From the NCBI RefSeq assembly GCF_000004195.4, contig NC_030677.2, positions 195,204,372 to 195,268,371 on the forward strand: a stretch of DNA of 64,000 nt. The letters run 5' to 3'. Both the position numbers and the translations under genes were made by a program. Below are positions 18,395 to 64,000 of the stretch, piece by piece. The notes under the pieces were generated by a model. That model was not told where the DNA came from. It searched no databases and saw only the letters and a list, made by a program, of their open reading frames with translations. The stretch's first letter is position 1, and each line of letters begins with the position of its first letter. This stretch comes from Xenopus tropicalis (taxonomy: Eukaryota; Chordata; Amphibia; Anura; Pipidae).

Positions 18395-19333
18395 ACAGGT
18401 ATGGGATTTGTTATTCGGAAAACCCATTATACAGAAAGCTTCAAATCATGGAAAGCCCGTCTCCCATAGACTCCATTTTAATCAAATAATTCAGAATTTT
18501 AAAGTTGATTTTCTTTTTCTCTGTAATAATAAAACAGTATCTGTACTTGATCCCAACTAAGATATAATTACCCCTTATTGGGGGCAGAACAGCCCTATTG
18601 GGTTTATTTCATGTTTAAATGATTCCCTTTTCTTTGTAATAATAAAACAGTACCTGTACTTGATCCCAACTAAGATATAATTACCCCTTATTGGGGGCAG
18701 AACAGTCCTATTGGGTTTATTTAATGGTTAAATGATTCCCTTTTCTCTGTAATAATAAAACAGTACCTGTACTTGATCCCAACTAAGATATAATTACCCC
18801 TTATTGGGGGCAGAACAGCCCTATTGGGTTTATTTCATGGTTAAATGATTCCCTTTTCTCTGTAATAATAAAACAGTACCTGTACTTGATCCCAACTAAG
18901 ATATAATTACCCCTTATTGGGGGCAGAACAGCCCTATTGGGTTTATTTCATGTTTAAATGATTCCCTTTTCTCTGTAATAATAAAACAGTACCTGTACTT
19001 GATCCCAACTAAGATATAATTACCCCTTATTGGGGGCAGAACAGCCCTATTGGGTTTATTTCATGGTTAAATGATTCCCTTTTCTCTGTAATAATAAAAC
19101 AGTACCTGTACTTGATCCCAACTAAGATATAATTACCCCTTATTGGGGGCAGAACAGCCCTATTGGGTTTATTTCATGGTTAAATGATTCCCTTTTCTCT
19201 GTAATAATAAAACAGTATCTGTACTTGATCCCAACTAATATATAATTAATCCTTATTGGAGGCAAAACAATCCTATTGGGTTTAATTAATGTTTTATTGA
19301 TATTTTAGTAGGCTTTAGATATGGAGATCCAAA
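18395..19333 (+). mobile_element. CAGGTATGG-type MITE carrying seven 113-bp units
   Basis: The left end is ACAGGTATGGGATTTGTTAT. Inside, the unit marked by GTAATAATAAAACAGTA recurs at 18523, 18636, 18749, 18862, 18975, 19088 and 19201, an exact 113-bp period. Internal units read CCCCTTATTGGGGGCAGAAC. The last unit differs (AATCCTTATTGGAGGCAAAA) and resembles the single unit of unexpanded copies. The right terminal inverted repeat is lost after TATGGAGATCC. Non-coding. Confidence 0.92.
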
Positions 19334-19633: not shown

Positions 19634-20501
19634 ACAGGTATGGGATCCCTTATCCGGAAACCGGAAAGTTCTCTCCCATAGACTCCATTATAAGCTAATA
19701 ATTCTAATTTTTACAAATAATTTCCTTTTTCTCTGTAAATAGAAAACAGTACCTGTACTTGATCCCAACTAAGATATAATTACCCCTTATTGGGGGCAGA
19801 ACAGCCCTATTGGGTTTATTTCATGGTTAAATGATTCCCTTTTCTCTGTAATAATAAAACAGTACTTGTACTTGATCCCAACTAAGATATAATTACCCCT
19901 TATTGGGGGCAGAACAATCCTATTGGGTTTATTTCATGGTTAAATGATTCCATTTTCTCTGTAATAATAAAACAGTATCTGTACTTGATCCCAACTAAGA
20001 TATAATTACCCCTTATTTGGGGCAGAACAGCCCTATTGGGTTTATTTCATGTTTAAATGATTCCCTTTTCTCTGTAATAATAAAACAGTACCTGTACTTG
20101 ATCCCAACTAAGATATAATTACCCCTTATTGGGGGCAGAAAAGCCCTATTGGGTTTATTTAATGGTTAAATGATTCCCTTTTCTCTGTAATAATAAAACA
20201 GTACCTGTACTTGATCCCAACTAAGATATAATTACCCCTTATTGGGGGCAGAACAGCCCTATTGGGTTTATTTAATGGTTAAATGATTCCCTTTTCTCTG
20301 TAATAATAAAACAGTACCTGTACTTGATCCCAACTAAGATATAATTACCCCTTATTGGGGGCAGAACAGCCCTATTGGGTTTATTCAATATTGAAATGAT
20401 CTTTAGTAGACTTAAGTTATGGAGATCCAAATTACGGAAAGACCCCTTATCCAGAAAACCCCAGGTCCCGAGCATTCTGGATAACAGGTCCCATACCTGT
20501 A
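19634..20501 (+). mobile_element. CAGGTATGG-type MITE carrying six 113-bp units, both ends present
   Basis: The left end CAGGTATGGGATCCCTTATC and right end CTGGATAACAGGTCCCATACCTG are inverted. Unit markers fall at 19735, 19848, 19961, 20074, 20187 and 20300, again 113 bp apart. It lies 300 bp downstream of the element at 18395, in the same orientation. Long minus-strand frames here are array artefacts. Confidence 0.93.
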
Positions 20502-26288: not shown

Positions 26289-27540
26289 AGTAAGAATAGT
26301 GAAACTAGCCTACAGATGGAGTCTGATTCATTAAGATGACTTTACTGTCTTTTTAAGTTTTCTTTGCCGTTGACAGGAGTTTATTAGGTCCCCAAGCAAA
26401 TGGAATACATGAAGCAAAGTGACAACTCCTGCATCGCATTATTGGCTTCAGAATTGCTGATTAGGAAACCCATTGAGCGCCGACAAGCGAGAAACTGCAG
26501 TTCGCAGATGGAATCCCTGGTTGGAGCCATTATGGTTTGGCAAAGGTTTATATGGTTTCCAGAGACATCAGATATTTAGATGAATACGTTACACAGGAGA
26601 CTGACTCCAAATATAGCTAGCATTCTCATTATGTGTATCTCCTTATAACTCCTTCTCTGTGCCGTTTTCTCTGTTACCCTTTCCTCCGTTTCTCTGGCAG
26701 CTTGCCTTGCAACCCCTTCTCTAGCTGCTCTGATAAAACATTGATTGATGGGATTCTGACTTCCTCCTGTGCACTCCACTGAACCGTTTTTGTCCAATTC
26801 TGTTTGCTTTTGACCTCAGAACACTGTATGGGTCAGATGATCTCTCTGAACTATGGTCTGATGTCCTAGATACCATATAACCCACTGCATATGGGTGGGA
26901 CTTTTTTTTTATTTTATGCTTTTTATATGATCCCATTTTAAATGAGATGCTGCAATCCCACATATGAGTGGGTTCACTGACCCCTGGCACCAAATTCTGG
27001 TGTATACTATTTTTATATAATAAATTAACACAAAAAAAAAGAAAGAAAGAAAAGACTCCATTTTCTGGTTTGCAGACAAAAGTGACCCTGGAAATTCCTG
27101 ACCCCTTGAGATTTACATCAAAAACCCTCAGTTTGCATCATTTTCATAACGGAACTGTGTCCTTTAGTACAGAAATCTCTTTTCCAGTGTGAGACAGAAT
27201 CCATGGAAATAGTTTGACCACAGTGACACAATATACTTTTTTTCCACACATCATTATGTATTAGCGTTAGAAAGGCAGCTGTTATATTATCTTTTCATAT
27301 TTGCCATAAAAATCAACGTGCATTGGATCTGATTACCAAATGTACCCAGGGGAGGCGCCACAATGGCATCAAATGTGTCATTTTTATATGGGAGAGGAAT
27401 GTTATTACTCTGTTCTGTATCTGTAAAATATCATTTTGTGTCAATGCTGCTAAAATCCATCACATAACATATCAATAGGCGCACAGAGAGGGAGTCTTTC
27501 TGAGCAATAATGGGAAAGTAGAAGGAAGGGTTTTAGTGAG
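26289..27540. other. No gene recognised
   Basis: The 90-codon minus frame near 26721-26993 has no support. Nothing else stands out. Confidence 0.4.
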
Positions 27541-28368
27541 TGTGGGAATTGTGAATGCAAGCAGTGTGTGTTGGTGTCTGTGTGGGTAATTGTGAGTGCT
27601 AGCTGTGTGTGTTGGTGTCTGTGTGGGTAATTGTGAGTGCAAGGAGTGTGTGTTGGTGTCTGTGTGGGTAATTGTGAGTGCAAGGAGTGTGTGCTAGTGT
27701 CTGTGTGGGTAATTGTGAGTGCAAGGAGTGTGTGCTACTGTCTGTGTGGGTAATTGTGAGTGCAAGGAGTGTGTGTTGGTGTCTGTGTGGGTAATTGTGA
27801 GTGCAAGGAGTGTGTGCTACTGTCTGTGTGGGTAATTGTGAGTGCAAGGAGTGTGTGCTAGTGTCTGTGTGGGTAATTGTGAGTGCAAGGAGTGTGTGCT
27901 AGTGTCTGTGTGGGTAATTGTGAGTGCAAGGAGTGTGTGTTGGTGTCTGTGTGGGTAATTGTGAGTGCAAGGAGTGTGTGTTGGTGTCTGTGTGGGTAAT
28001 TGTGAGTGCAAGGAGTGTGTGCTAGTGTCTGTGTGGGTAATTGTGAGTGCAAGGAGTGTGTGTTGGTGTCTGTGTGGGTAATTGTGAGTGCAAGGAGTGT
28101 GTGCTACTGTCTGTGTGGGTAATTGTGAGTGCAAGGAGTGTGTGCTAGTGTCTGTGTGGGTAATTGTGAGTGCAAGGAGTGTGTGCTAGTGTCTGTGTGG
28201 GTAATTGTGAGTGCAAGGAGTGTGTGTTGGTGTCTGTGTGGGTAATTGTGAGTGCAAGGAGTGTGTGTTGGTGTCTGTGTGGGTAATTGTGAGTGCAAGG
28301 AGTGTGTGCTAGTGTCTGTGTGGGTAATTGTGAGTGCAAGGAGTGTGTGCTAGGGTCTGTGTGTGTAA
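27541..28368. repeat. 41-bp minisatellite, 20 copies, with higher-order structure
   Basis: The unit is GTGTGGGTAATTGTGAGTGC followed by AAGGAGTGTGTG and a variable 9-mer. Three 9-mer variants occur: TTGGTGTCT (T), CTAGTGTCT (A) and CTACTGTCT (C). In order the copies read T T T A C T C A A T T A T C A A T T A, then a final A-like copy with one change. Copies 6-12 and 13-19 have the same seven-letter order, so there is a 287-bp higher-order repeat. The antisense His/Thr-rich frames are artefacts of an open, non-triplet repeat. Confidence 0.97.
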
Positions 28369-37621: not shown

Positions 37622-38926
37622 AAGATATATAGAAACGCATTCTGAGTGTGCTCATTGCCATTCTCTTCCAGTCACTTCAGAGGTTTTAGTTCCCTACTTT
37701 TCCTTCTGCTTTATGGCAATGCATGAACACAAGGCTTCCTAAAATCTACACAGGGAATGAATTGTTTTTAATGAAAATGATCCTATTGCTGACTTTGAGG
37801 CGCAGTGCCAACTGTTTGCGCCCTTTCTCTATTTTTGTCTGGTTTCCAACACATTCTTTGTACTTCATCTCAATTAATATAATAAAAGGTCTAAGCATCG
37901 TGACCCTCCGAATGTAGCAGGAAACAAATGTCACTACTGTAAAACCTGCTTGGTACCCCTTTAATAAATCTAAATGAAAAAATGAACTGTTCTGGAAACT
38001 AAAGGCTCAGGCAATGGGTTTTAATGTAAGAGTTTCTATATTTAGAAAAACTTATTTTGACTGTTTTGGATCACTTTAGACTATTGACTATGCCATTATA
38101 AAAAAAAAAGCAAAGGGATTTTTCGCTGATTTCGTTCAATATTAGCAATTTCAATTTCTCTTTTTAAAATAACAAAATATAAGATTAAACTGAGGAATTG
38201 CAGTCTTTATGGATGTATTTTATACTGCACAATTAGCATACGTATGGACTAAAAATATATTCTTATTATTTTTAAACCAACCCCTTTGTTTATAAAGAAA
38301 GACAGAACCAAGGAAACAATTGCAAAGAATGATTCGTCAAAGCACTGAATGGAAACACTATTATATCTGCAGATCTTCTGTATCCAAGACTTTGTTTTTA
38401 TTAAACTGTTTAAGAAAAGCTTTAACCAAACATGAATGAAATAGATGCATAAAGAATGGTTGGCCGGGCGACCAGGTTTAAGAAAACAGTATAATTATTA
38501 TTTAAAGCTAAAGCTAATTAAAGCCTACTTTACCAGCTTTTTATTAAATCTCGTTATTGTAAAGCTTATTATCTGCTAATGTAATTCAAACGCCCAGAGC
38601 CACTGATTCTAAAAGATGCATTGGCAATATATGGAGACCTGTATTGCTTGGGGCCCACGTATTGATAATGGAAAAGTTGCCACAGGGGGTCATCATCTTC
38701 GATTCTGTTAAAAGTGTCAGTGACACTGCACATGCTCAGCGGGCTCTGGGCAGCTGTTGAGAAGCTGAGCTTAGGGGTTGTGGCAAATTGTCAAGTACAA
38801 AATGAGGTTTGTCTGTCATATAAGCTGATGCTACAGGGCTGATTATAACATTTTGATGATAATTGCACTGGTTTCAAAGCTGTCATGTACTAATAATCTG
38901 TATTATTTACTAATCAGCCTTATATT
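37622..38926. other. No gene recognised
   Basis: AT-rich sequence with no repeat or exon I can support. Confidence 0.45.
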
Positions 38927-39358
38927 GTGACATTTATATTGTATATATACAGTATATAGTGAGTGGGCCCCTAAGCTCAGGTTATACTGTGACATTTATA
39001 TTGTATATATACAGTATATAGTGAGTGGGCCTCTAAGCTCAGGTTATACTGTGCCATTTATATTGTATATTTACAGTATATAGTGAGTGGGTCCCTAAGC
39101 TCAGGTTATACTGTGACATTTATATTGTATATATACAGTATATTGTGAGTCGGTCCCTAAGCTCAGGTTATACTGTGCCATTTATATTGTATATATACAG
39201 TATATAGTGAGTGGGCCCCTAAGCTCAGGTTATACTGTGACATTTATATTGTATATATACAGTATATAGTGAGTGGGCCCCTAAGCTCAGGTTATACTGT
39301 GACATTTATATTGTATATATACAGTATATAGTGAGTAGGTCCCTAAGCTCAGGTAAGT
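38927..39358. repeat. 62-bp tandem array, seven copies
   Basis: Units begin GTGACATTTATATTGTATAT (or GTGCCA) at 38927, 38989, 39051, 39113, 39175, 39237 and 39299, exactly 62 bp apart. Each contains TATATACAGTATATA, a near palindrome, and ends CCCTAAGCTCAGG. Variants GTGACA and GTGCCA are interspersed. Confidence 0.95.
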
Positions 39359-41602: not shown

Positions 41603-42349
41603 TACAGGTATCGGATCCCTTATCCGGAAACCCATTATCCAGAAAGCTCTGAATTACGGAAAGCCTGTCTCCCATATTTAATCAAATAATTCAGAATTTT
41701 AAAACTGATTTCCTTTTTCTCTGTAATAATAAAACAGTACCTGTACTTGATCCCAACTAAGATATAATTACCCCTTATTGGGGGCAGAACAGCCCTATTG
41801 GGTTTATTTAATGGTTAAATGATTCCCTTTTCTCTGTAATAATAAAACAGTACCTGCACTTGATCCCAACTAAGATATAATTACCCCTTATTGGGGGCAG
41901 AACAGCCCTATTGGGTTTATTCCATGGTTAAATGATTCCCTTTTCTCTGTAATAATAAAACAGTACCTGTACTTGATCCCAACTAAGATATAATTACCCC
42001 TTATTGGGGGCAGAAAAATCCTATTGGGTTTATTTAATGGTTAAATGATTCCCTTTTCTCTGTAATAATAAAACAGTACCTGTACTTGATCCCAACTAAG
42101 ATATAATTACCCCTTATTGGGGGCAGAACAGTCCTATTGGGTTTATTTCATGGTTAAATGATTCCATTTTCTCTGTAATAATAAAACAACACCATGTAAT
42201 TGATCCCAACTAAGATATACTGTAAATAATCCTTATTGGGTGCAAAACAATCCTATTGGTTTAATTAATGGTCTATAGATTTTTTAGTAGACTTAAGGTA
42301 AGGAGATCCAAATCACAGAAAGACCCCTTCTCAGATCCTATACCTGTAC
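41603..42349 (+). mobile_element. CAGGTATGG-type MITE carrying five 113-bp units
   Basis: The left end TACAGGTATCGGATCCCTTA and the worn right end AGATCCTATACCTGTA are inverted. Unit markers fall at 41723, 41836, 41949, 42062 and 42175, 113 bp apart. The last unit is the divergent AATCCTTATTGGGTGCAAAA form, as in the array at 18395. Confidence 0.92.
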
Positions 42350-45845: not shown

Positions 45846-48841
45846 ACCTCATTTATAACCAACAAAACCAACGGTGTTCCAACAGGATGACAAAATGACA
45901 TTTGCAATGGTGGGGCAACTGCCAGGTTGGCAGAGCTATACAGGTCTATGTTGTTCTATAGCTTTAAAGATGTGGCATAAGAACACACTGTAACAACAAA
46001 GACAGGACACTCAGAAATGGGCCCAGGAGTATAAGAGTTTATAGGATTATAGCGGGCCTACTGGTTCTCTGAGGCAGGTTATCTTCAACATACAAAAACT
46101 CTATTAAAGTATAGGTGTTAATTGGGGCTAAATTAGGAGAAAAGTTTTTCCCCCTCTCGCCCATATGTTCTCACCCAATGAACCATAAAATAATGTTTTC
46201 TCATGGAAATGAATCAGGCCCATTGTGTCAATATGACTTCCTCTAAGGAAAACTTGCCGTGATGGGTTGCATCTGGACATTTTCTAACAATTAAAATATA
46301 TTCACAATTAACAGCCATAGGGAATTGAAACAGCTGCAGCAGCATGGCTTGCAGATCTGTGGTTATTTGTGTGTCTCCTGGCAGAGCTCCCATAATAACA
46401 ACATTTATGTATCACTAATAGGTTAAGTGCTCACTATGACCCTTCCCTCACAGATAAAGGTACATGCCTCTGTCTGTAATTGCACAGTAATGTCGATATG
46501 CGCCTTTTACCATGTCCGTGGCTGCAGATCCATTTGCCATTACACAAATAAACTTTGTATTTAGCCTTCACAGAAGATGTTTCCATGCCCTCTCCTAAAA
46601 TAGAATATTTCCATCTCTTCACTTTTTTGGCCTTTTAATCAATGCTGTTTTTGTGTTCGCTTTTGTGGTCCATAATTAGCCAAAGTATGCCTACTGAGTT
46701 TCCTCCAGTGATTTGCATGGTGCCACGTCAGCACAATCTCTGAGAGAACCAATGCTTTATTGCAGATATTTAGTAAATTTCCCACTTGATGACAGGCCAG
46801 TGAAGGTTTGGAGCCGATATAGGCATATACAGTACTTACTGTGCTTAAGCTGGCCACACTTACTCTACTTTCCATTCTAGTTTCCAACTTCCTCAAGGAC
46901 TAACTAATTAGATCATTGTGGAAACATGGTCTCATTCTAATTTTGACTGACTGAAAACGCCATTCATGTGTTGTTGGGGTAGGGGCATTTAATAATAATA
47001 ATTCTGTGTTTATGTTTTGCAAAGAACATAAGCTTTTAAAGCACTTTAGCAGGCACTTCCTATACAGTTTTCCTAATTTCCTAATTTTATTTGGAAATCT
47101 TTCCCATGCCCTGTGAGGTTTGGTTTAGCCCAACTATTCTATCAATAGTATGAGGAATTTCAGGGAAGCATAATGTCCCAGTAGTGAAAAACAAGAACCT
47201 CAGAATTCTTCTCTGTCCTATCCCTGGAATAGGTAAGTTATAGAAACAACATGATCCCATTACAGATTGCTTTCATAACTATGTCTAATCTACCCTTTGA
47301 TCTAATGCTGGCCATCGGCCAGCTTCTCTAGTGGTGATGGGGAGACTGGCCAGATATTAGAGCAAGGTAGACATACGTAAAATGGGCAAAATTCGCTGAT
47401 CCAATAAATTTATCAACAAGACAATTGCTTGGATCATTCAGTAGAAATATGGGTCATTGGTTGGCATAGTTCTATATTTTGGCCAATACATATTGGAGTG
47501 ATTGCACCAAAGGCTGATTACCCACATCATTTATTTTAGATGTCAACACACAGATTATTTGGGGCCATCACAATACTGAATCAAAGACTGCAACCATTTT
47601 CAGTTGAAATTGCGAATGGAAAGGTAGGATTGCTAAGGATGGACCCCAGACCACAACAAGTGTAACCAGCTCCACCTGCAAGCTAGGTAAGAGAAATGCA
47701 AAACCCCAAGCACATGCCAACCAATATTTACAACTTCTATTGAAACTGTCACTTCTCTATACCTAGTTATACAGAGATGCTTACTGAACACAGACACAAC
47801 CATTTCCAATGATGAAAGTAAACATTTACATAGCTATCATGCCTGGCACATTCCCTTTGTATCTTGGGAGACCATAGAAGAAAGAATCCTTTATAACATC
47901 AAAAAAACCACTTTATTTGACTTTTCATTTAGTCTACCAGAGTTTGCCCCCTGCCAAAGAAGGCAGCTATTATTGCTTCAGGATCCCACACTCCTGGCTA
48001 ATGATAATGATACAGTCGTTATTTCTTCTAGTCAGGTCATTAAAGCCAGGCTTGGGATAATAATGGTAGCTAGTGGAGTGTACTACTCACAGTGGGGATA
48101 CTGAACAGACACTGAAGTGATACTATAGCATTTAATACTAAATGACATGGGAAGCTTCATAGGTGCACAAAAAGGGGGGAGAAAAAATGGAAAGTGTGAG
48201 GTGAAGAAGCAAAATCAAAATGTATGGCCCTCTGAGACTAAAGGTTTCCCTGATCTTCAAGTCTCAACTATTCCGAAAATGTAACTGTAGGACTGTCAGC
48301 TACTGAGTCATATAACAAAGTATCAGCAATGTACAACACTTCCACACTGGACAGACTACGGGGAAGGGCTGAGTGACTGCAGCAAAGCTAATGGCTTTTG
48401 TATGGCATAATGTCTTCTCCGTAAATTGCAGATGGTTTTGGGGTGACTAATCAATGTGTGTACCAGCCCTAGATGTAAATAAAGAAACACATTCTCGTGT
48501 TTTTATGCTTTGTCCCTGGGAAAAGCCAAGACAAAATACAACAAAAGGTCCCATGTGCTTTTGAGGGTTTGTTTTAGACAATAACCTGAATTACCTTTTC
48601 AGGATGATAAAGCTGAAAAAAATGTGTAACATAGCAACGTTCACTTCAATTTTAATTGAAGAAAGATCTATGCTTGATTTTTGTGTGGATTCCTGATTCA
48701 GTCCCTTGTGGCCTTGGACCTAAGACTAGCTTGTGTACCAAACCGTCAGGGACATATAACTGAAATCATGCCCTTTCAGCAGTTTCTATAGCACCCTTTT
48801 ATACACAATCCTCAATGGACCATAGGGCTGCTAAGATACAT
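45846..48841. other. Three kb without a recognisable feature
   Basis: No gene or bounded repeat. A minus-strand stretch near 46502-46590 has an acceptor-like TTCTATTTTAG and an open frame, but only a weak GTAAAA donor. A worn relative of the GGTGGCCATACAC family may lie near 47300-47560. Confidence 0.4.
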
Positions 48842-49158
48842 AGGGCCTGATTCACTAAAGGGCGATAAAACGTGTGCTATTTTTATTGTGCGCTAAAATT
48901 TTTACCGCGGCTTAATTTTGGCGATTTTTCGCACGATTCACTATAAGCATACTCGCGCTTTTTTACGCGCGATATTGCATGCGTTATTTAACTCGCGAAG
49001 ACTATTTCAATGCGGTATTTGCTGGTACATGTGCTAAATTACGCCCGCGAATAGTCACCGCATATGAATGGTAGCTTAGAAATAGTGTATAAAAATTGTC
49101 GCCGCATATAAGAGGATTTGTTACTCACCGATAAAGCCTTTTCTCGGAGTCCCGTCAC

Positions 49159-49289
49159 GGCAGCACAGGTACCAGTGGGTTAATGCACTCTTCCCTTTAG
49201 GAGGCAGGATAGCAAAAGTAAAAAAGGCTAGGGTCCCTCCCCAGCCTTTCCCCTCCCTCTTCCCTGCATTAACCCCTCCTCCGACAGTT
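49159..49289. repeat. DIRS inverted terminal repeat (3' end of the element)
   Basis: This 131-bp stretch (GGCAGCACAGGTACCAGTGG to CTCCGACAGTT) is the reverse complement of 54633-54763 with no difference that I can see. The outermost 46 bp (49113-49158) differ from the other end, as usual in DIRS elements, and are represented in the internal complementary region instead. Confidence 0.95.
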
Positions 49290-49332
49290 ACGGTTAGCAC
49301 AGCTTATGGAGAAGATAAAAAGGGTGGGACTC

Positions 49333-49431
49333 CCTGTGCTGCCGTGACGGGACTCCGAGAAAAGGCTTTATCGGTGAGTAACAAATCCTCTTTTCTCGGT
49401 CGTCCCTAGGCAGCACAGGTACCAGTGGGTT
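49333..49431. repeat. DIRS internal complementary region
   Basis: The first half (49333-49392) is the reverse complement of the element's low-coordinate tip (49111-49170). The second half (49391-49431) is the reverse complement of the high-coordinate tip (54741-54781). The two meet around CCTCTTTTCTC, which is the sequence expected where the ends join in a circle. In DIRS elements this region is thought to template the ends and the circular junction before recombinase-mediated insertion. Confidence 0.95.
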
Positions 49432-49563
49432 CGTCCCAAAGCAGAGAGTAAAAGGGGGGGAATACTTGTACAATAGGAATAGCAATAAAAAATAGAACGA
49501 AATGGAAGTAATAACTTAACTGAAGGATGTAAATGCTCTAACATGGCAAACTGAGAGCGGGCG

Positions 49564-50556
49564 TTACTGCTGGACCGCTGACTGAAGAACTTTCCGGCCG
49601 AAGGCTGCTTCCGCCGAAGAGAACACATTAAACTTGTAAAATTTCGTAAAGGTGTGAATGGAGGACCACGTGGCCGCTTTGCAGATCTGTTCGGTTGATG
49701 CGGCGTTGGCCAGCGCCCATGAAGTGCTGAGGGCTCTAGTAGTGTGTGCAGACGTTTTGAATGGTATCGGTAAGCCCTTGTCCCTGGAGATTGAGGTAAT
49801 TAGGGCTTTGATCCAGCGGGCGATGGATGCTTTGGAAGCCTTGGCACCCTTGTGTTGGGGGCCGTACAAGACGAAGAGTGAGTCGGACTTGCGGGTATTC
49901 GCTGTCCTATGGATGTAGAACTTTAGTGCTCTCACCACGTCTAGGTTGTGTAGCAGTCGTTCCTGTGGTGATGCCGGTTTAGGGCATAGTGAGGGGAGAA
50001 CTATCTCCTGATTAAGGTGGAATGCTGAGTTGACTTTTGGAATGAATGTAGGTAAAGTTCGCAGGACGGCTTTGTCCTCGTGAAAGATGCAGTATGGAGG
50101 CTTATGGGATAAGGCTCCTAGTTCCGAAATCCTTCTGGCTGAGGATATTGCCACCAAGAAAGCCACCTTCCAAGTGAGGAGTTTCAGATCGCTGGTGGCT
50201 AATGGTTCGAAAGGTGCGTACTGAAGCGTGCGGAGGACTAGGTTCAAGTCCCATGGTGGTAGGGGGCTTTTGTATGGTGGTTTGATGTGTGTTGCCGCTT
50301 GCAAGAATGTCCTGATGTCTGGATGTGTCGCTAGTTGGTGCTGAAAAAGCAGTGAGAGTGCGGACACTTGTACTTTTAACGAGTTAACCCCCAGGCCTTT
50401 GTCTAGGCCGTTCTGGAGAAACTCTAGTAGTGTGGGGATATGACACTTGGATGTACTGCGCTGGGTGCCGGTGCACCGGGTGAGGAATGTGTTCCAGATG
50501 CGATGGTAAGCTTTCATGGTGACCGATTTGCGGGCTTTCATGAGTGTGGAAGTCAC
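49564..50556 (-). CDS. DIRS tyrosine recombinase
   Basis: Integrates the circular DNA copy by tyrosine recombination. The domain fills the last 330 codons of a 951-codon open frame that begins at 52419; numbering here uses that frame. A helical core-binding part (from about residue 622, KARKSVTMKAYHRIW) precedes the catalytic part. Candidate catalytic residues are Arg 762/763 (SSARRISEL), His 892 and Arg 895 (HTTR), Trp 918 or His 922 (ATWSSIHTF) and Tyr 928 (TKFYKF). The end is SAVQQ before the stop at 49564. The domain starts just as the RT frame stops (50553). The nearest in-frame ATG is 50541, so restart of translation or a -1 shift from the RT frame are both possible. The coordinate given is the domain limit, not a proven start. 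Confidence 0.92.
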   Translation of the reverse strand: MTSTLMKARKSVTMKAYHRIWNTFLTRCTGTQRSTSKCHIPTLLEFLQNGLDKGLGVNSLKVQVSALSLLFQHQLATHPDIRTFLQAATHIKPPYKSPLPPWDLNLVLRTLQYAPFEPLATSDLKLLTWKVAFLVAISSARRISELGALSHKPPYCIFHEDKAVLRTLPTFIPKVNSAFHLNQEIVLPSLCPKPASPQERLLHNLDVVRALKFYIHRTANTRKSDSLFVLYGPQHKGAKASKASIARWIKALITSISRDKGLPIPFKTSAHTTRALSTSWALANAASTEQICKAATWSSIHTFTKFYKFNVFSSAEAAFGRKVLQSAVQQ

Positions 50557-52493
50557 TCTGGTGGAGAATCCCTTACGTGACCAGATGGCGGTTTCAATAG
50601 CCACCCCGTGAGTGCCAAGTTTTCCAGTCCAGGGTGGAGAAGTTTGCCCTGGAGTAGGAGGTCCGGCCTTAGCGGGAGCCTCCATGGCGGTGCTATTGCG
50701 AGTGTTTGGAGTTCGGAGAACCACGGTCTTCTCGGCCAGAACGGGGTGATGACTATGGCTGTGGTTCGGAACTGAAGGAGTCTGCGGAGGACTGGGTGGA
50801 TCATGGGTATGGGAGGGAATATGTACACCAAGTCGAAGGTCCACGGGGTGGACATTGCATCGACCGCGAGTGCCTGTGGGTCCCGATATCTGGTGCAATA
50901 GTGGGGAAGTTGATGATTGAACCGGGAAGCCATCAGGTCTACCTGTGGCGTTCCCCATTGTCGTGTGATTTGCTGGAACACTGTTGTGTTGAGGGACCAT
51001 TCCCCTGGGTCTGCAAAGTTTCGGCTGAGGAAATCTGCCTCCCAGTTGAGGTGACCCGGGATGTATACTGCTGTAAGGCGGCAGTGATAGTCCTCTGCCC
51101 ACTGGAGTATCCGGGAGACCTCTTTCCAGGCGGCGCGGCTCTTGGTGCCCCCCTGGTGATTTATGTATGCCACGGTGGTGGCATTGTCTGATTGGACTTT
51201 GACTGGGCGTCCCCCCAGTAGGTGTGTCCAGTGGGTGATGGATAGGTACACTGCTCGGAGCTCCAGTAGGTTGATGTGGAGGTCCTTCTCCTGTGAGGAC
51301 CATTTCCCTTGGACCGTCCTGTGATTGAAGACGCCGCCCCAGCCGAGTAAGCTGGCGTCTGTTGTGATGACGGCCCAGTTGGTGAAGGAGCAGGTCCTGC
51401 CTTTTAGGAGATTGTTGGGTTGAAGCCACCATTGTAAGGAGGCTCTTGTGGGGCGGGACAGGCGTATTAGGCTGCTGAGGTTGTGGCGAAGCCTTGCCCA
51501 TTGTCTGAGGAACTCCAGTTGTAGCTGCCGCATGTGAAATTGAGCAAAAGGCACTACCTCTATGGTTGAGGTCATCAGGCCCAGAAGGCGCATGCATGTC
51601 CTTGCGGTGATTGCCGTGGAGGATACGGCTTGTCGTGCCGCGGCTGATATGCATCTCTGTTTTACCTTTGTCAGGGAGACTTTGTGTTGCCTGGAGTCGA
51701 ATTGGACGCCCAGAAAGATGATGGACTGTGTTGGTTGCAGCATACTTTTTTTGAGGTGTATCTGCCACCCGTGTGCCTCTAAGATGCGTACGCATGTTGT
51801 GGTTCCGCTTAGTGCTTGGGCATGGGTCGGGGCTCGCAGTAGGAGGTCGTCTAGGTATGGGAGTACGTAAAGTCCCTGTTGTCGCATGTAGGCCACCAAG
51901 GCTGCCATTACCTTTGTGAAGACACGTGGAGCCGTGGCCAGGCCGAAGGGTAAGGCCTGAAACTGGAAGTGACTTCCTGCGAATGCGAAGCGTAGGTATT
52001 TCTGGTGGTCTTGGTGTATAGGTATGTGTAGGTAGGCGTCTCTTAAGTCGATGGACGTGAAGAAGTCCCCTTGCTGGACGTTGGCTATAACGGAGCGAAG
52101 TGATTCCATTTTGAACGACGGTACCACTAGGAACTTGTTTAAGGCCTTCAGGTCTAATACCGGCCGGAATGACCCGTCCTTCTTTGGGACGAGGAAGAGG
52201 TTTGAGTAGAAACCCGCCTTCCTTTCTGGTGCTGGTACTGGTATGACCGCTCTGGCGGTTAGCATGGTGTTTATGGCTTGTTTGAGAGCGAGTCTCTTTT
52301 GTGCCGTGGGAGGGATATTTGACTCTATAAACTTGCAGGGGGGGTCGTGGTGGAATTGGATCCTGTAACCCGAAGCAACGAGTTGGTGAACCCACTTGTC
52401 TGTTGTTGAGGATAGCCATGCTTCCCTGAAGAGTAGGAGGCGCCCCCCTACCGCCTCCTGCATACCAGGGGGGGCTTGTCTTTCATGCGTCAT
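50553..52493 (-). CDS. DIRS reverse transcriptase / RNase H / methyltransferase-like protein (646 aa)
   Basis: Copies the element's RNA into DNA. The N-terminal VGGRL motif (15-19) is typical of the family. The RT domain spans about 90-265, with FTSIDLRDAY (145-154, Asp149) and YLDD (213-216) as catalytic motifs. RNase H follows: Asp379 (TTDAS), Glu411 (LELRA), Asp436 (SDNATT) and Asp487 (EADFLS). The rest (about 510-600, VDLMASRFN and YIFPPIP) corresponds to the methyltransferase-like domain of DIRS elements; its FPP triplet stands where a DPPW/Y motif would be expected, so activity is doubtful. The start at 52493 overlaps the end of the Gag frame by 11 bases (52483-52493). All key residues are present and the frame is unbroken. 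Confidence 0.95.
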   Translation of the reverse strand: MTHERQAPPGMQEAVGGRLLLFREAWLSSTTDKWVHQLVASGYRIQFHHDPPCKFIESNIPPTAQKRLALKQAINTMLTARAVIPVPAPERKAGFYSNLFLVPKKDGSFRPVLDLKALNKFLVVPSFKMESLRSVIANVQQGDFFTSIDLRDAYLHIPIHQDHQKYLRFAFAGSHFQFQALPFGLATAPRVFTKVMAALVAYMRQQGLYVLPYLDDLLLRAPTHAQALSGTTTCVRILEAHGWQIHLKKSMLQPTQSIIFLGVQFDSRQHKVSLTKVKQRCISAAARQAVSSTAITARTCMRLLGLMTSTIEVVPFAQFHMRQLQLEFLRQWARLRHNLSSLIRLSRPTRASLQWWLQPNNLLKGRTCSFTNWAVITTDASLLGWGGVFNHRTVQGKWSSQEKDLHINLLELRAVYLSITHWTHLLGGRPVKVQSDNATTVAYINHQGGTKSRAAWKEVSRILQWAEDYHCRLTAVYIPGHLNWEADFLSRNFADPGEWSLNTTVFQQITRQWGTPQVDLMASRFNHQLPHYCTRYRDPQALAVDAMSTPWTFDLVYIFPPIPMIHPVLRRLLQFRTTAIVITPFWPRRPWFSELQTLAIAPPWRLPLRPDLLLQGKLLHPGLENLALTGWLLKPPSGHVRDSPPE

Positions 52494-53268
52494 TAGGTTT
52501 ATCGGAGGTTCCCTTGAATGGGCGCCTCTGCGTGTTCCAAGATGGTTTCCTGTTGGGGCGGTAACTTTTCGCGGGACCTGAGTAGGTGTTTTGTGGCCTT
52601 GGTTGTTGGGGGGAGCGCCTGAAATAGTTGGAGGACCGAAAGGACCGTTTGGGTTGTGAACCGCTCGGGCGTGTCTTCTTGTCTTGTGGAAGGAAGTTAC
52701 TTTTTCCCCCGGTTATCTTGTTGATGATTGAGTCCAATTCTGGACCAAAGAGGGAAGCGCCTGTGAAAGGTAGGGCTACTAGGTTTTTCTTTGAAGCCGG
52801 ATCAGCGCTCCAGGTTTTCATCCAGAGGGCCCGTCTGGCTCCGATGGACATGGCTGATGTTTTGGCCAGAAGTTGTAGTGTGTCCATGGAGGAATCACAT
52901 AGAAAATGAACCGCGTTTAGGATCTTGGATAACTGCCCGTGCATGTCAAAGGATTCGTCAGTGACAGCGGTTAGGGCCTCCTCGAGCCACAGGACTGCCG
53001 TGCGTGATACACAAGCTGAAGCTACTGTGGGTTTAAAGGCTGAATTAGAGGAGGAGAATATGTTCTTGAGTAGACTTTCTGCCTTTCTGTCCATGGGATC
53101 TCTAAAGGACGTTCCGTCCTCTAATGGGATTGTGGTTCTTTTGGCTAATCTAGCTACCGGTGCATCCACCTTGGGGGTGCTGTCCCATAAGTCCTTATGT
53201 GCCTGGTCAAATGGATACAAAGTATCGATTCTCTTATCTTTAGTTAGTCGGCGATCTGGGGTTTCCAT
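52483..53268 (-). pseudogene. DIRS Gag-like protein, C-terminal part (261 codons)
   Basis: Continues the Gag-like frame after a frameshift. The first ATG (53268) lies 24 bases upstream of the stop of the N-terminal part and is unlikely to be the natural start. The middle is helical and Cys-poor. The last 60 residues are very basic with many Arg, Pro, Gln and Asn (FRSSNYFRRSPQQPRPQ), as expected for RNA binding, and there is no CCHC zinc knuckle. It ends at 52483, overlapping the RT start, so the two are probably translationally coupled. The break could also be a sequencing error. Confidence 0.8.
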
Positions 53269-53861
53269 TCTTTTTTAATGAGCTCCTGTACGGTTTCATG
53301 TACCGGAAACTGTTTCTGGTTTCGGTGAGCTGAACCAAAAAGTTTGTCTAGTGTCTTTTGTTCTTTCACTTCTTCCTGTATGCCTAGGGTTTGGAACATG
53401 TCTGTAAGCAAGACGTTGACTGCCTCTGTCTGAGGTCTGTGGGTTGGATCGGCTGAGTGAGTGGCCTGATCTAGCTCCTCAGAGCTACTGAAAGCTAGGT
53501 TGTCTTCCCCAGAGGAATAACCCTCTATGTCAGGCTGTGTGGGTCCCATTCCCATACTAGGTGCTGGACCCGCTATAGGGGCATTGTCAGGTGTGGTACC
53601 CTTGTGAGCTTGTTGTAAAGAGGAAAGTTTTTCAAGTGAGGTGGAGATACCCAACAGTGTACTTTGAAAGGGTTTAAACCAATCTGGTATTTCGGTTGTA
53701 ACCTCTGTGTGTTGTGTGGAGGGCTTGCTCCTTTTAGACTCTTGGTTAGGTTCCCTGGGCTTTGAGCGCTTGTATTGGCGCTTGCCTGTGCCCTGAACCG
53801 GTTCTGCGGTTCTTAGATCCCCTGTGTCTGGGCTGGGGGAGTTGCCTGACTCAGAAGCCAT
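53244..53861 (-). pseudogene. DIRS Gag-like protein, N-terminal part (205 codons, ends at a frameshift)
   Basis: Starts at ATG 53861 and opens MASESGNSPSPDTGD. A basic KRQYKRSKPR patch (about 29-45) and an acidic, Ser-rich stretch (EGYSSGEDNLAFSSSEELD) follow, so the protein is hydrophilic and low in complexity, as DIRS ORF1 proteins usually are. The frame stops at 53244 just after an A-rich run, and the -1 frame continues as the 261-codon part. A loss of one base (or gain of two) near 53250-53270 is the simplest cause. A (TA)n tract lies at about 53879-53899, just upstream of the start. Confidence 0.8.
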
Positions 53862-54333
53862 GTTAGGCTAAGTGGGGATATATATATATATATATATAGA
53901 GAGGGAAAATACCCCGTTTGGGATAGAGCAAAGGTAGTGAAGAGGAGGCTGTGCCAACCGTACCTGTGCTGTTATGGGGCTAATATTGCCCTTGGTGGAG
54001 TCTCCCGCAGGGTGTGTATCCCTCCCGCCGTTTGTGCCTGTAGTCGGAGCGTTCCGCGCTGGCTGGGCTCTACTGGAAGTGCGCAGCGTGTCGGATCCGG
54101 AACTTCCGGTGACGCGTTCAGGCGCGAAGAAAGTGGCGCCACATTTGAAATTTCGGCGCTGAAAATGACTGGCGGGGGGAATGTGCGGGTGACCGCTGTG
54201 CCGCCAAGGTGATGGGGCATCTCAGGCGGTCCCTGTGACAGCGCTGACAGCTGCCTTGGGTTTGGGGAAATTGAGCAGCGCTGCAGCTGCAAACCCCTGC
54301 AGGGATGCTTACCCTGTGATGGAAGGGGACAGG

Positions 54334-54445
54334 GGCAGCGCTGAAGCATGCCCTTCCAGTCCTCCTTCTGCAGTTAGGCAGCGCAGAAGCATGCCGTTGA
54401 AGACCCCTTTGTGTATGATAGCCCCTGGTAGCGCAAAAGCATACC
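54334..54445. repeat. Three short direct repeats in the DIRS leader
   Basis: GGCAGCGCTGAAGCATGCC at 54334, GGCAGCGCAGAAGCATGCC at 54377 and GGTAGCGCAAAAGCATACC at 54427, spaced 43 and 50 bp. Further CAGCGCTG words lie at 54239 and 54275. They are in the untranslated leader of the element, 5' of Gag, so a role in expression or RNA packaging is possible but unproven. Confidence 0.7.
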
Positions 54446-54632
54446 GTGTGGGCAGGGGTTGTTGTCCAAGAAAAGGGCCATAGAATATCCATGGCGTCCT
54501 GGGTATCACCTGTACCAAAAATAAATAAGCCTAAAAGATAAAACATAAAAAATAAAAAGTAAAAAGTAAAAATAAAAGGTTGAGGGAGCAGAGCTCCCAC
54601 ACTACCTGCCTCCAGGAAGCAGGATAGCAAAA

Positions 54633-54763
54633 AACTGTCGGAGGAGGGGTTAATGCAGGGAAGAGGGAGGGGAAAGGCTGGGGAGGGACCCTAGCCTTTT
54701 TTACTTTTGCTATCCTGCCTCCTAAAGGGAAGAGTGCATTAACCCACTGGTACCTGTGCTGCC
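54633..54763. repeat. DIRS inverted terminal repeat (5' end of the element)
   Basis: The reverse complement of 49159-49289, identical as far as I can read. In the element's own orientation this is the upstream repeat, followed by the leader and Gag. The outermost part (54764-54781) carries GCCTAGGGACGACCGAGAAA, which differs from the other end and matches the internal complementary region. Confidence 0.95.
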
Positions 54764-54850
54764 TAGGGACGACCGAGAAAAATGGTGTATATAAATATTA
54801 GCCACATATAAATGGTATCATATAAATAGTAGATGCTTATAAATAGTAGC

Positions 54851-55158
54851 CGCTAGTGATGAGCAAATGTGTTCTGGTTTCTTTAGTGAAAAATTAGCAA
54901 ATCTTTCGAAAGATCCCCGAAACGGCAAAAATGTTGTGCGGGCAAAAAAATTGTTGCTGTGACTATTATTTTTTGACGCTTGTATAAATTTTTGGATGTG
55001 CGGTGAATTTTTGCGTGGCAAATTTTTTCATGCGTTTTGCCATTGGCGGATTGTTTTGCGAAACGCATGAAAAAATCCGCCGTGAAAAAATTCAACGCAC
55101 GTCCAAAAATTTGCTGCGAATCCATGCCTGGCGAAACATTTCATCACTTGTAGCCAAA
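54851..55158. mobile_element. CTAGTGATGAGCAAAT-ended MITE inside the foldback element
   Basis: It begins GCTAGTGATGAGCAAATG and ends with the inverted AACATTTCATCACTTG. Internal palindromes include CATGCGTTTTGCC..GCGAAACGCATG. The flanks share GTAGCC (54846-54851 and 55151-55156), a likely decayed target duplication. Confidence 0.7.
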
Positions 55159-55656
55159 TATAAATAGTCGCGCAAATGAACGCACGCCATGTTAGCCATA
55201 CACGCCAATACTTGCGGAAAATTACTGTATTAAAAATGAACATTTCGCTGCAAACTGGCGGCTGCGTCACTCTAGGGGAAACACAGACTTGAATAAATAA
55301 CACTGTAAGTCCATATTTTATTGCAAAAAATCATTTACTGTACTTTTGTATAATTTTTCGCCTGCCTGTAGTAGGTGTTAATTTTCGCATAGCCAAATGC
55401 GATATTTAGCGCGCAAAAGTTATAGTGAATCATGCGATCGTATTCTTTTCAGCGCGGAAATTAACGCATGCGGTAAAACTAGTGCGAGAAATAACCCATG
55501 CGAAAATGGCGATTTTTCCCACGCGATAATACTATGGTGAATCGCGCGCAAATTATTTTGCGTTTTTTAACGCAAAAAAGCGTGCGATAATTTTTATCGC
55601 ACTTTAGTGAATCAGGCCCTCTGTCCTCTCAATCTAGTAATGCTACAGCTCCTGAC

Positions 55657-60925: not shown

Positions 60926-62353
60926 CTATGTACGAGGGGAAAGTTCTGAAAGGCTCCATTGGACAAGCCTTGGAGAGGAGTATGCCTTGCCATAGCCAGA
61001 GGCGCTCTATGATGCTGCAGACGAACCAAACCCTGAACGGCAGCCAAGACAATACGACTTGCTTACATGATCTGCAGAATATATATGTGATGAGTAAGAG
61101 TTTGCTTTCAGTTTTGTGTCTCTTGGCAGACCTTTCCCCCCCGCACTATATGCTTTGCATAGCTGGCAGGTAGCCTTGTGTGAGTTGAGAAAGAGCTCGA
61201 CGCTTACATAATCCAGCTCACTAAATGTTATGCCGCAGGCCAGTGTTTATGCAACTGGTGCTTAAAGAATATATTACACCTAATTATATGTTGCATAAGA
61301 GACATCATGTTATATCCACTAGACAATGCCTTCAAAAGATACTGGAATTTAACAAGGATCAACTTCAAAGGAGGTACCTAACGTTAATGTAGCAGTAAAA
61401 AAGAATGTTTCTGGAACAGTGCAAGTCCTTGATAGCTCTGCAGTACAACTGGATCTTGCACGCAGCCCTGTTTACTACAACAAGAGCTCACAGACTCATG
61501 TATTCCAGTGTGAGGCTTATTCTGTAAGTTGGAACCTTGAGAAGGTGGTTAGGCTAACAAGGAGTCATCTGTGTGCCACTATTGATAAATCATAGGGAAA
61601 TAATATTGTATCTGATCATCTGGTCCCTTAATAAATTAAAAAATCATGGCAACTGCCATAAAGAGGGTACATTTTCACAATTTGTTACAATGTATGGAAA
61701 AATAACCACAGTGGTTTCTGCAATACTCAGAGACGGCGCCTTAAGCCAATGGTACTGGAGGAGCTCTGTAGTGGTCAAAATATCCTATGACCTCCAAATA
61801 CAATTACAGACCAAAGATCAGAAACAGCATGATCCATCTGTCACCTCCAGGCCTACTATGAGCAGGGCGCCTCTCAAACATCTTTGAAAACACCACCTAA
61901 AAACAGCAGGGGACAAACACCCCTCGTGCCATTGGCCATAGCGGGTAAGGGCAGGTACACTCAAAAGACAAAACTTCAACCACTTAACAATAACGATGGG
62001 GGTTCATCCATGTCTGGATCATCTACCACTAGGCCCTTCCCTTCTGCCTAGAGACAGGTAATTCCCCATCTAACTTTTCATTCATCAAATACTACACTGT
62101 AACACCCTCAGGTCCCAACCTCATGGTGATTATTGGGTGAATGCCCAGCTACATTTCTGTTTTCCTGCCTACACCACCATCAGGCCCTTCTATCTAATGA
62201 CTGATAGGTGAATGCCCATCAACAACTCACTCTGTGCATCACCATAAGTCACACTCAAGTCCTTCCTCCAAATAAGGACTTTTCATCTACTTTCCAGTTT
62301 ACCAAGTGCCACCCATCACCACCCACAGAGCCATCACTCCTGGTGACTAGCAT
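60926..62353. other. No gene recognised
   Basis: The frames at 60928-61173 and 61573-61887 (plus) have no splice or family support. Confidence 0.4.
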
Positions 62354-62796
62354 TTAAAGGAACAGTAACACCAAAAAATGAAAGTGTATAAAAATAATTA
62401 ATATATTATGTACTATTGCCCTGCACTGGTAAAAGTTGTGTGTTTGCTTCATAAACACTACTACAGTTTATATAAATACCCTGTTGTGTAGCCATGGGGG
62501 CAGCCATTTAAATTGAAAAAAGGAGAAAAGGCACAGGTTACTAAGCAGATAACAGATAAGTAGCATAGATTCCCATTGTATTCTACAGAGTTATCTGTTA
62601 TCTTCTTATGTAACCTGTGCCTTTTCTCCTTTTTTCAATTTAAATGGCTGCCCCCATGGCTACACAGCAGCTATTTCTATTAACTATAGTAGTCTTTCTG
62701 AAGCAAACACGCAACTTTTACCAGTGCAGGGCAACATTACATTATATTTTAATTATTTTAAAGCTTTTTTATTTTTTAGTGTTACTGTTCCTTTAA
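62354..62796. mobile_element. Complete foldback MITE, palindromic nearly end to end (443 bp)
   Basis: The ends TTAAAGGAACAGTAACACCA and GTGTTACTGTTCCTTTAA are inverted, with TTAA at each tip. Pairing continues inwards: CCCTGCACTGGTAAAAG (62419) with its complement near 62731, then a long inner pair (62485-62559 and 62591-62667) around GCCATGGGGGCAGCCATTTA. The loop is about 30 bases. Non-coding. Confidence 0.92.
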
Positions 62797-64000
62797 ATAC
62801 CCAGCTATATATTTCAGTTCCCAATCTTATGTTACACTCTGGCCCTCCTTCTCTCCAGGTGAGTGTCCATCTTCATTTGGCTTGTACCAGATACTCCTCA
62901 GTCCTACTTTTCTCATGACGGAATAGTATTCTTTACAATACTTCGTGTACCAGTTTGCAACACACTCTGGCCCTTCTCTTCTGGAGATTGCCAGTTGACT
63001 GACAGAGATTGACAGGTGAATGCCCATCTACTTTTCAGTTTTCACATACCCATTTGGCCTGGCCCTTCACTTCAGCTGATTGGCAGGGTGAATGTTCCTC
63101 TACATTTCAATTCTTCTGGTACATGAGATTTCACATCTACTGTAGCACATTCCTAACTCTTTCTGCTTTGTGTCAGTACTGGAATGTGAGGCACGTGAGC
63201 CTCCAGCTGCTGTGGGCAATAGCTTCTCCTCTCAACCCTCTGTGTTTAACATCTCTGCCTTATGGCCTTATGCACAATGCTCACAGACCCACCAATACCC
63301 CAATCATTTCAGGATGCCGCACGTCCCCCACAGTCCATAGGCAATCACTTTCTTTCCACTGCGTATTAATGTAATAAAATTCAAATAACCCATTATTGTT
63401 TCCATTTTAATAACTTTTCATATTAAAACTGTAAAATATCTTTGAATCCCTTGGAGCAGAAATCCTGAATAAGCAACATTATTTATTCATTCAAATTCTA
63501 TATAGTCACCCACTGTAGGGAATGCAATATCCTATCACAGTGTAGGAGTATGAGAGTATGTGGCTGTGAATTCAGAGTATGGTACTGAACTATGCTTGGA
63601 AAAAAAAGTATAATTTTCTATAATATCACCTTGTACCAAAGCTAAAGGTACCCCTCAATGATTCAGATTCAGTCAAATCACTTGTGGAGGAATTGGTATT
63701 TGTCTGAATCTAAAAATTGTTGCTTGATGTTTCCCTTTATACAGCATAAACACTAAGAACAAAATAATACATAAAAAAAAAACATAGTCACAACGGTGAC
63801 TTGTGATCCTGCGTAATGTGATGTTCTTGGGTTATGTGCCAAATATGCCAGGTTGTGTTACCAGAAGACAGGCTGAGACATCACAATGAATGAAGAGCTC
63901 TTTTGAGCTAACACAGTCTATCACAATTACTTCTGCATGCAAGCCTGCACAGTTAGTGCTCTGAGGCTACCAAAGGCCATTCCTGGGGAGCAAGGGATTG
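62797..64000. other. No gene recognised
   Basis: Related phrases (GGTGAATGCCCATCTAC, TTCAGTTTTC, GGCCCTTC) recur loosely from 62060 to 63130 at irregular spacing, as if from a very old tandem repeat. The 121-codon plus frame at 63009-63374 lies in it and is not supported as a gene. Confidence 0.35.

Follow-up and report, generated by a model that had tools for sequence, protein, structure and literature searches.

A DIRS-like retrotransposon of Xenopus tropicalis with Gag and recombinase in one reading frame around a single UGA, a possible site of recoding

DIRS-like retrotransposons have an extensive overlap between the genes for the tyrosine recombinase (YR) and for the reverse transcriptase and RNase H (RT/RH), which is general knowledge for the order (PMC6681497). 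In Xenopus tropicalis, 75 DIRS-like Repbase families have been counted, and the families described there possess three open reading frames (ORFs), for a LAP2alpha-type Gag, for RT/RH with a methyltransferase (MT) and for YR, together with terminal repeats of about 120 bp and a complementary region (PMC9210276). We analyzed a 64,000-nucleotide stretch of X. tropicalis DNA (NC_030677.2, positions 195,204,372 to 195,268,371; hereafter the window), which carries on its reverse strand, at 49113..54781, a DIRS-like retrotransposon of 5,669 bp that resembles them in these features, with a putative methyltransferase (5' end at 54781, 3' end at 49113). Given the number of families counted, this copy would very likely be a member of one of them. 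The published X. tropicalis elements XtDIRS2 and XtDIRS3 are also like it in their TTT start, AAA circle junction and long ORF overlap; compared by table values, their lengths are 5,571 and 6,196 (5,669 in the window), their conserved repeats 102 and 123 (131), the halves of their complementary regions 43-61 and 41-65 (41-60) and their right extensions 30 and 34 nt (26 nt; PMC3266345). The element type, the LAP2alpha Gag and the long ORF overlaps are already known in X. tropicalis (PMC9210276, PMC3266345). As an insertion this is an ordinary element, another young DIRS copy; what was unexpected is the layout of its genes.

The text consulted of PMC9210276 describes an overlap of mainly ORF2 and ORF3 and does not mention a frame common to Gag and YR on both sides of a single UGA. 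We found no statement of such frame sharing in the literature searched, outside which most subscription journals lie, and no selection test on the DIRS overlap, the founding analyses (Goodwin and Poulter 2001) also lying outside it. The available portions of PMC3266345, PMC9210276, PMC2685390, PMC3783388, PMC6681497 and PMC5633606 contain no explanation of the way in which the overlapping frames for RT and recombinase are expressed in DIRS elements. Systems in which some ribosomes bypass a UGA have been described elsewhere, namely the gag-UGA-pol arrangement of Tca2 (PMC2194720) and the +1 frameshifting at UCC_UGA of OAZ1, where stopping, reading through and shifting frame are competing outcomes at a single stop codon (PMC9841425). 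Unlike what we propose below, neither is described in these sources as using one UGA for two enzymes in two frames. The LAP2alpha domain of TMPO and ZNF451 is homologous to the Gag of the window element; there it belongs to a domesticated host protein and no element is present, and its origin from a DIRS1-like ORF1 has been published (PMC4495291).

In the window element, Gag and the recombinase form one reading frame that is interrupted by a single UGA (52483-52485), and RT/RNase H lies in the +1 frame relative to Gag (50553..52712). The recombinase frame (49564..52482) is the frame of the second Gag piece and begins directly after the UGA; 972 codons are open, 643 of them across RT. For this overlap (50553-52482, hereafter the linker), about 9 stops were expected when synonymous codons of RT were shuffled, and 17-19 from the codon usage of non-overlapping genes.

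Further copies were sought in a 1.45-Gb, 167-contig assembly. A 1-kb Gag probe matched at least 44 genomic places including the window, from which 34 other places were fetched (L012-L045); an RT search, in which 62 places were scored of 5,185 candidates, added 11 copies (L046-L056), of which 8 were picked without a stop inside RT and 3 with one. The RT of 10 of these 11 was compared with that of the window and is 51-65% identical to it. Two remoter elements, L002 and L003 (37-38% RT identity), come from contigs labelled bacterial (Proteobacteria, Breoghania metagenome-assembled genomes) and are evidently eukaryotic contamination; L002 is a partial DIRS element, and L003 extends from repeat to repeat, its contig beginning and ending at the element's own repeats. 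From these sources we picked 19 copies with an intact overlap (window, L012, L014, L016, L017, L019, L032, L046, L047, L049-L056, L002 and L003). The choice was non-random, and the copies, which fall into 8 lineages (groups with at most 66% RT identity between them), do not amount to 19 independent cases. In L048 the frames are swapped by an indel near locus position 2263, and this copy was therefore excluded, its Gag-continuing frame being open for 641 codons; L024 is not among the 19 either (YR open for 954 codons, RT for only 442). L013, L020, L022, L023 and L028 have partly open frames that are not joined to Gag, and in the other 22 of L012-L045, which did not enter the shuffle test, the longest frames are shorter or frame-shifted.

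The overlap was stop-free in all 19 copies, over 629-701 codons each, with UGA as the Gag stop and RT in +1. Synonymous-codon shuffles predicted 8.7-18.2 stops per copy, and zero stops occurred in none of 1000 shuffles per copy. The third frame of the overlap was not short of stops in 18 of the 19 copies (the exception was L051, one-sided P = 0.04), and among 12 controls in Gag and the recombinase domain, 11 were unremarkable and one was short of stops (P = 0.02). A chance open frame was rejected by the shuffles and by the other frames. Stops are thus kept out of the recombinase frame over the full length of RT. The same avoidance is visible base by base: after the Gag stop, T at RT third positions before AA, AG or GA was found at 0/113 sites in the window, 0/142 in L002 and 0/100 in L003, compared with 53/529, 91/532 and 122/600 elsewhere in these elements. 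In 16/19 copies the frame is 966-1,002 codons long and its stop lies beyond the recombinase; in L019 it ends inside the recombinase domain, at codon 745, and in L054 and L056 it is still open at the end of the fetched stretch. The layout recurs beyond the window itself. The recombinase frame directly follows the Gag TGA in the long-frame copies of the window clade (L012, L014, L016, L017, L024, L032) and in L019, where it is open up to codon 745; Gag and recombinase share one frame with a single TGA between them and RT in +1 in L002 and L003; and in the distant families L046-L056 the layout holds over the whole overlap in 10 of 11 copies and in L048 up to the indel. An alternative layout with RT following Gag in frame (L022, L028) was rejected for L022, which lacks one base in the C run after the Gag stop, so that its layout is read as decay; L028 was not traced.

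The Gag terminator was TGA in all 29 window-clade rows aligned there, the window included (33 rows were aligned; L018, L026, L038 and L041 do not align at the stop and were excluded, and L025 and L045 gave no match in this place), and UGA in 19/19 of the chosen copies. RT in these copies ends with TAA in 8, TGA in 8 and TAG in 3, and the 16 recombinase stops seen are 9 TAA, 7 TAG and no TGA. Part of this constancy could come from RT, since the Gag terminator supplies the GA of an acidic RT codon; its T, however, occupies an RT third position, and farther downstream the window, L002 and L003 have no other such T in front of AA, AG or GA. The codon before the UGA is GCA or GCC in 5 of 8 lineages, and CU follows in 5 of 8; CUA follows only in 3/19 copies (L052, L054 and L056, 2 of 8 lineages).

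These comparisons argue for selection that lets ribosomes traverse the whole of RT in the frame of Gag and recombinase. We propose, with a probability of roughly 0.6, that the recombinase would be made as a Gag-YR fusion by readthrough of the UGA and RT as a Gag-RT fusion by +1 frameshifting. Most ribosomes would end at the UGA and yield Gag, some would read through it into a Gag-linker-recombinase fusion, and others would shift +1 before or at the UGA and produce Gag-RT/RNase H, so that both enzymes could be carried into Gag particles as minor Gag extensions. Termination at the UGA with rare readthrough would explain why Gag and recombinase share a frame, why just one stop separates them, why this stop is always UGA and why CU often comes next. 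UGA is a weak stop when its next base is C. The readthrough motif UGA-CUA has been tested in human cells (PMC4132726, PMC5133446). RT would need a different route, because 8/19 copies, from 6 of 8 lineages (L002, L016, L017, L032, L046, L054, L055 and L056), have no RT-frame AUG between the opening of the frame and at least codon +41 past the Gag stop, and the conserved RT start, of the VGGRLLLF type, is at about +12 to +28. The simplest such route would be a +1 shift from Gag, which may take place upstream or at the UGA itself; CCC_UGA in L002 resembles the UCC_UGA of antizyme. In the steps that follow, taken from the published model, reverse transcription would use the internal complementary region to rebuild both ends and to close the circle, and a Cre-like recombinase would insert the circle at short T/A matches; a circular DNA intermediate is reported as verified in Dictyostelium (PMC5633606).

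If both enzymes are Gag recoding products, there would be a reason for dual coding over about 640 codons and a testable Gag-to-enzyme ratio, and an element resident in a vertebrate genome would be added to the users of readthrough and +1 frameshifting. A stricter version, which we put forward only tentatively, is that one UGA might act as a three-way switch, with a stop giving Gag, readthrough giving Gag-recombinase and a +1 slip giving Gag-RT/RNase H. Two enzymes in overlapping frames would then be dosed and packaged from a single recoding site, with no protease, splicing or starts of their own, and the switch would explain the stop-free second frame across RT in elements at 35-41% RT identity.

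Several observations weigh against recoding at the Gag stop. The 93 nt from the UGA showed no unusual RNA fold (z = -0.01 for the window, 0.64 for L002 and -0.83 for L003). In the window clade, the base after the UGA is a purine instead of C, and recombinase codon 22 is an AUG with G at +4, so that reinitiation could make the recombinase there. The RT frame did not open into Gag beyond what shuffles give (P = 1.0, 0.26 and 0.29 in the three elements), and the frameshift site was therefore not located; an RT-frame AUG lies near or before the Gag stop in 11/19 copies. The linker protein changes fast, with 52-66% identity in comparisons that give 80-87% for RT (10 pairs) and 84-92% for the recombinase (6 pairs), and its conservation beyond that due to RT plus openness is small (z = 2.09, -0.19 and 1.94), which is odd for part of a fusion protein. 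From published work, a long overlap is absent in half of 28 elements (PMC3266345), and the junction of the Candida Tca2 element (gag-UGA-pol) alone gave no readthrough in yeast (PMC2194720). Other candidates were tried and rejected: an RNA structure after the UGA (none found in the three elements), an RT start far upstream in Gag (the opening into Gag is no longer than in shuffles of the three elements) and a functional conserved linker protein (at most a weak conservation signal).

The main and serious rival, for the recombinase in 16/19 copies, is initiation at codon 17-30, either by termination and reinitiation or internally, at an AUG close behind the Gag stop (in the window at codon 22, 52417-52419). 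By this route the linker would still be translated, so that its open frame would be explained. In those 16 copies the first recombinase-frame AUG falls at codon 17-30, with G at +4 in 15; the database protein P0215 starts at the codon-22 AUG, and in the window and L012 an RT-frame AUG is found 2 codons before the Gag stop. However, the recombinase frame has no AUG for 154 codons after the UGA in L002, 237 in L052 and 327 in L055, copies from 3 lineages, and these stretches are stop-free as well (P = 0.004, 0.0004 and 0.002, respectively). The AUG is not kept within a lineage, being absent from L052 and at codon 29 in L054, the RTs of which are 88% identical, and in the window clade it falls, by alignment, on an RT tryptophan codon, so that it may be a by-product. 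The constant UGA would also be left unexplained, and we regard this route as unlikely on the whole.

Less probable still, to the point of being doubtful, is the production of RT and recombinase from spliced or separate transcripts, with another cause for the open overlap. Some retroelements use extra promoters, and the gag-pol junction of Tca2 held a minor promoter; however, Tca2 pol itself was concluded to come from gag-pol RNA (PMC2194720), and a message joined just before the recombinase domain would have no need for the ~640 open upstream codons that are kept in the 19 copies. That the window holds an ordinary DIRS copy, with a long overlap that stems from composition and has no bearing on expression, is hardly credible: half of 28 elements are already on record with a long ORF overlap (PMC3266345) and T is scarce at the third positions of the RT region, but the codon-preserving shuffles still expect many stops in every copy, and neither the other overlap frame nor the controls share the shortage, apart from the single weak exceptions given above.

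The copy in the window is a full-length DIRS-like retrotransposon with a frameshifted Gag, inserted without target duplication inside an older repeat. An earlier note on this DNA, made from the letters alone, had described 131-bp identical inverted repeats and an internal region complementary to both tips. We re-tested exact equality, and the arms 49159-49289 and 54633-54763 are complementary at 131/131 positions. This identity is confined to the inner core: over the whole repeat, 145/152 columns match, because the outer ends of the two repeats differ. The 5' inverted terminal repeat (54633..54781, reverse strand) has 18 outer nt that match the other repeat imperfectly, and the 3' repeat (49113..49289, reverse strand) has a 26-nt outer extension (49113-49138), of a kind published for DIRS elements (PMC3266345). 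The internal complementary region, the putative circle-junction template (49333..49431, reverse strand), matches the 3' end at 60/60 positions (49333-49392 with 49110-49169) and the 5' end at 41/41 (49391-49431 with 54741-54781), its halves sharing 2 nt (49391-49392). The differing outer parts of the repeats fall inside the stretches that this region covers, each end separately, as the published DIRS model would predict, in which the ends are templated internally and the inner parts by each other. The same layout of repeats and complementary region was found again in other genomic copies. Inverted repeats with an extension, an internal complementary region and genes for gag, RT/RNase H and recombinase place the element in the DIRS1 group; split direct repeats of the Ngaro/PAT type were not found, the repeats being inverted and the longest direct repeats imperfect (37 nt).

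All genes lie on the reverse strand. As the earlier note had also noticed, Gag carries one frameshift. Its first piece is an open frame at 53244..53867 (ATG at 53859-53861), and its second piece (52483..53274) carries the LAP2alpha domain (Pfam PF11560, E = 1.2e-12; PDB 2v0x, E = 2.6e-13); the two are in different frames, overlap by 31 nt and break within this overlap. In the predicted frog protein P0009 the matches to the two pieces stand in order and are separated by 2 residues (E = 1.7e-35 for the second piece and, weakly, 0.003 for the first). The note's open RT/RNase H and recombinase frames with catalytic motifs were borne out too. RT/RNase H matches Pfam RVT_1 (9.3e-24) and RT_RNaseH (9e-07), with YLDD at 51846-51857 and RNase H motifs at 51351-51365, 51252-51269 and 51180-51194. 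The tail after RNase H (~50721-50939) we take, by position and motifs, to be methyltransferase-like: DLMAS and FPP motifs presumably stand at the expected place, and no Pfam methyltransferase match was found at E up to 1. The YR domain (49564..50610) is defined by homologues and a Cre-like predicted fold, and contains what we take to be the R box (50119-50142), HxxR (49735-49749) and the tyrosine box (49630-49647). The recombinase frame has no Pfam match and 94 homologous proteins, several of them named tyrosine recombinase, the best being frog proteins with up to 59% identity. The predicted structure (mean pLDDT 83.6, pTM 0.70) matched Cre-loxP complexes first (E = 5.9e-08, TM about 0.5). The X. 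tropicalis protein P0215 is the L012 recombinase frame from codon 22 (0/951 mismatches; 2/951 relative to the window).

Some frog and turtle proteins named for host genes (myosin motor, laminin EGF-like, RAD51 homologue) also match DIRS RT or recombinase, which suggests gene models fused with element fragments. No tRNA and no Rfam match at the gathering level was found, and a search of viral contigs gave one weak RT relative (L001), further searches there giving none.

The junctions fit recombination of a circle at a very short match. The 3' junction lies at 49110..49112, where the AA of 49110-49111 may derive from target or element, and the matching 5' junction is the A run 54778-54782. The flanks of the window element joined with exactly 3 A matched a neighbouring host-repeat unit best (score 33, vs 17-27 with 0-2 or 4-7 A); a target with 3 A and a circle junction with 4 A would give the 2 + 5 A at the junctions, so that no base need be gained or lost. 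The empty allele is expected to read CATATAAATGG. The lack of a target duplication, which the earlier note gave as known for DIRS elements, was borne out: in 17/21 copies with both ends the flanks have no 4-8 nt in common, and in the remaining four (L012, L013, L017, L033) they share only TA-type sequence. Elements start with (A/T/C)TTT in 29/29 copies with a readable 5' end and at the 3' end read CTT followed by T, A or G in 24/25. The older host repeat is bounded by terminal inverted repeats at 48838..48870 (forward strand, 33 nt) and 55592..55624 (reverse strand), which are 93.9% complementary, and no clear target duplication was seen by eye in its own flanks. Inside it lies a palindrome (54986-55112) with 55-nt arms that are 85% complementary.

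L012 (C3:133.0 Mb), the nearest genomic copy found, was aligned with the window over 5,392 columns, which contain 8 substitutions and 1 gap column; its Gag frame is unbroken (461 codons). The neutral rate is ~1-3 per billion sites and year, at which this divergence is under a million years. Close copies are few: the next is 95% identical to the window, the others 85% and less, and with the Gag probe at least 3 places including the window exceeded 90% identity. A second young pair, L016 (C1:161.67 Mb) and L017 (C1:25.56 Mb), has 8 differences in 5,651 aligned columns, different sites and all three frames open. The few substitutions relative to L012, together with the unbroken Gag of that copy, support recent activity, and families with recent activity exist in X. 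tropicalis, in agreement with the earlier note's view of a recent insertion from a family with active members. Its use of repeat identity as a sign of recency, by contrast, proved weak. Near-identical arms are also kept in L013 (130/130), L032 (104/104), L031 (89/89) and L033 (131/132), of which L013, L031 and L033 have broken frames and L013 is about 5% diverged from the window; terminal repeat identity is therefore a weak clock, and dating by the repeats alone was rejected.

L012 is also incomplete (element 5392 to about 5641; L012:5771-5837): the complementary region has lost its right half and the right repeat its core, and the sequence is consistent with a jump between two CCGAGAAAA repeats. 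The right half is lost in L015 (5402 to 5463) and L039 (5401 to 5475) as well. In the window it can form a 60-bp perfect hairpin with the 3' end, so that template jumping, later deletion or assembly error are possible causes in the three copies.

Elsewhere in the window, a 113-bp satellite unit occurs in three arrays, two side by side (18515-19291 and 19722-20385) and one about 21 kb away (41710-42219). Further tandem arrays lie at 27540-28368 (41-bp unit), 38920-39354 (62-bp unit) and 3-898 (46-bp unit), and a long imperfect inverted repeat at 62352-62798 (447 nt) matches its own reverse complement at 86.5%.

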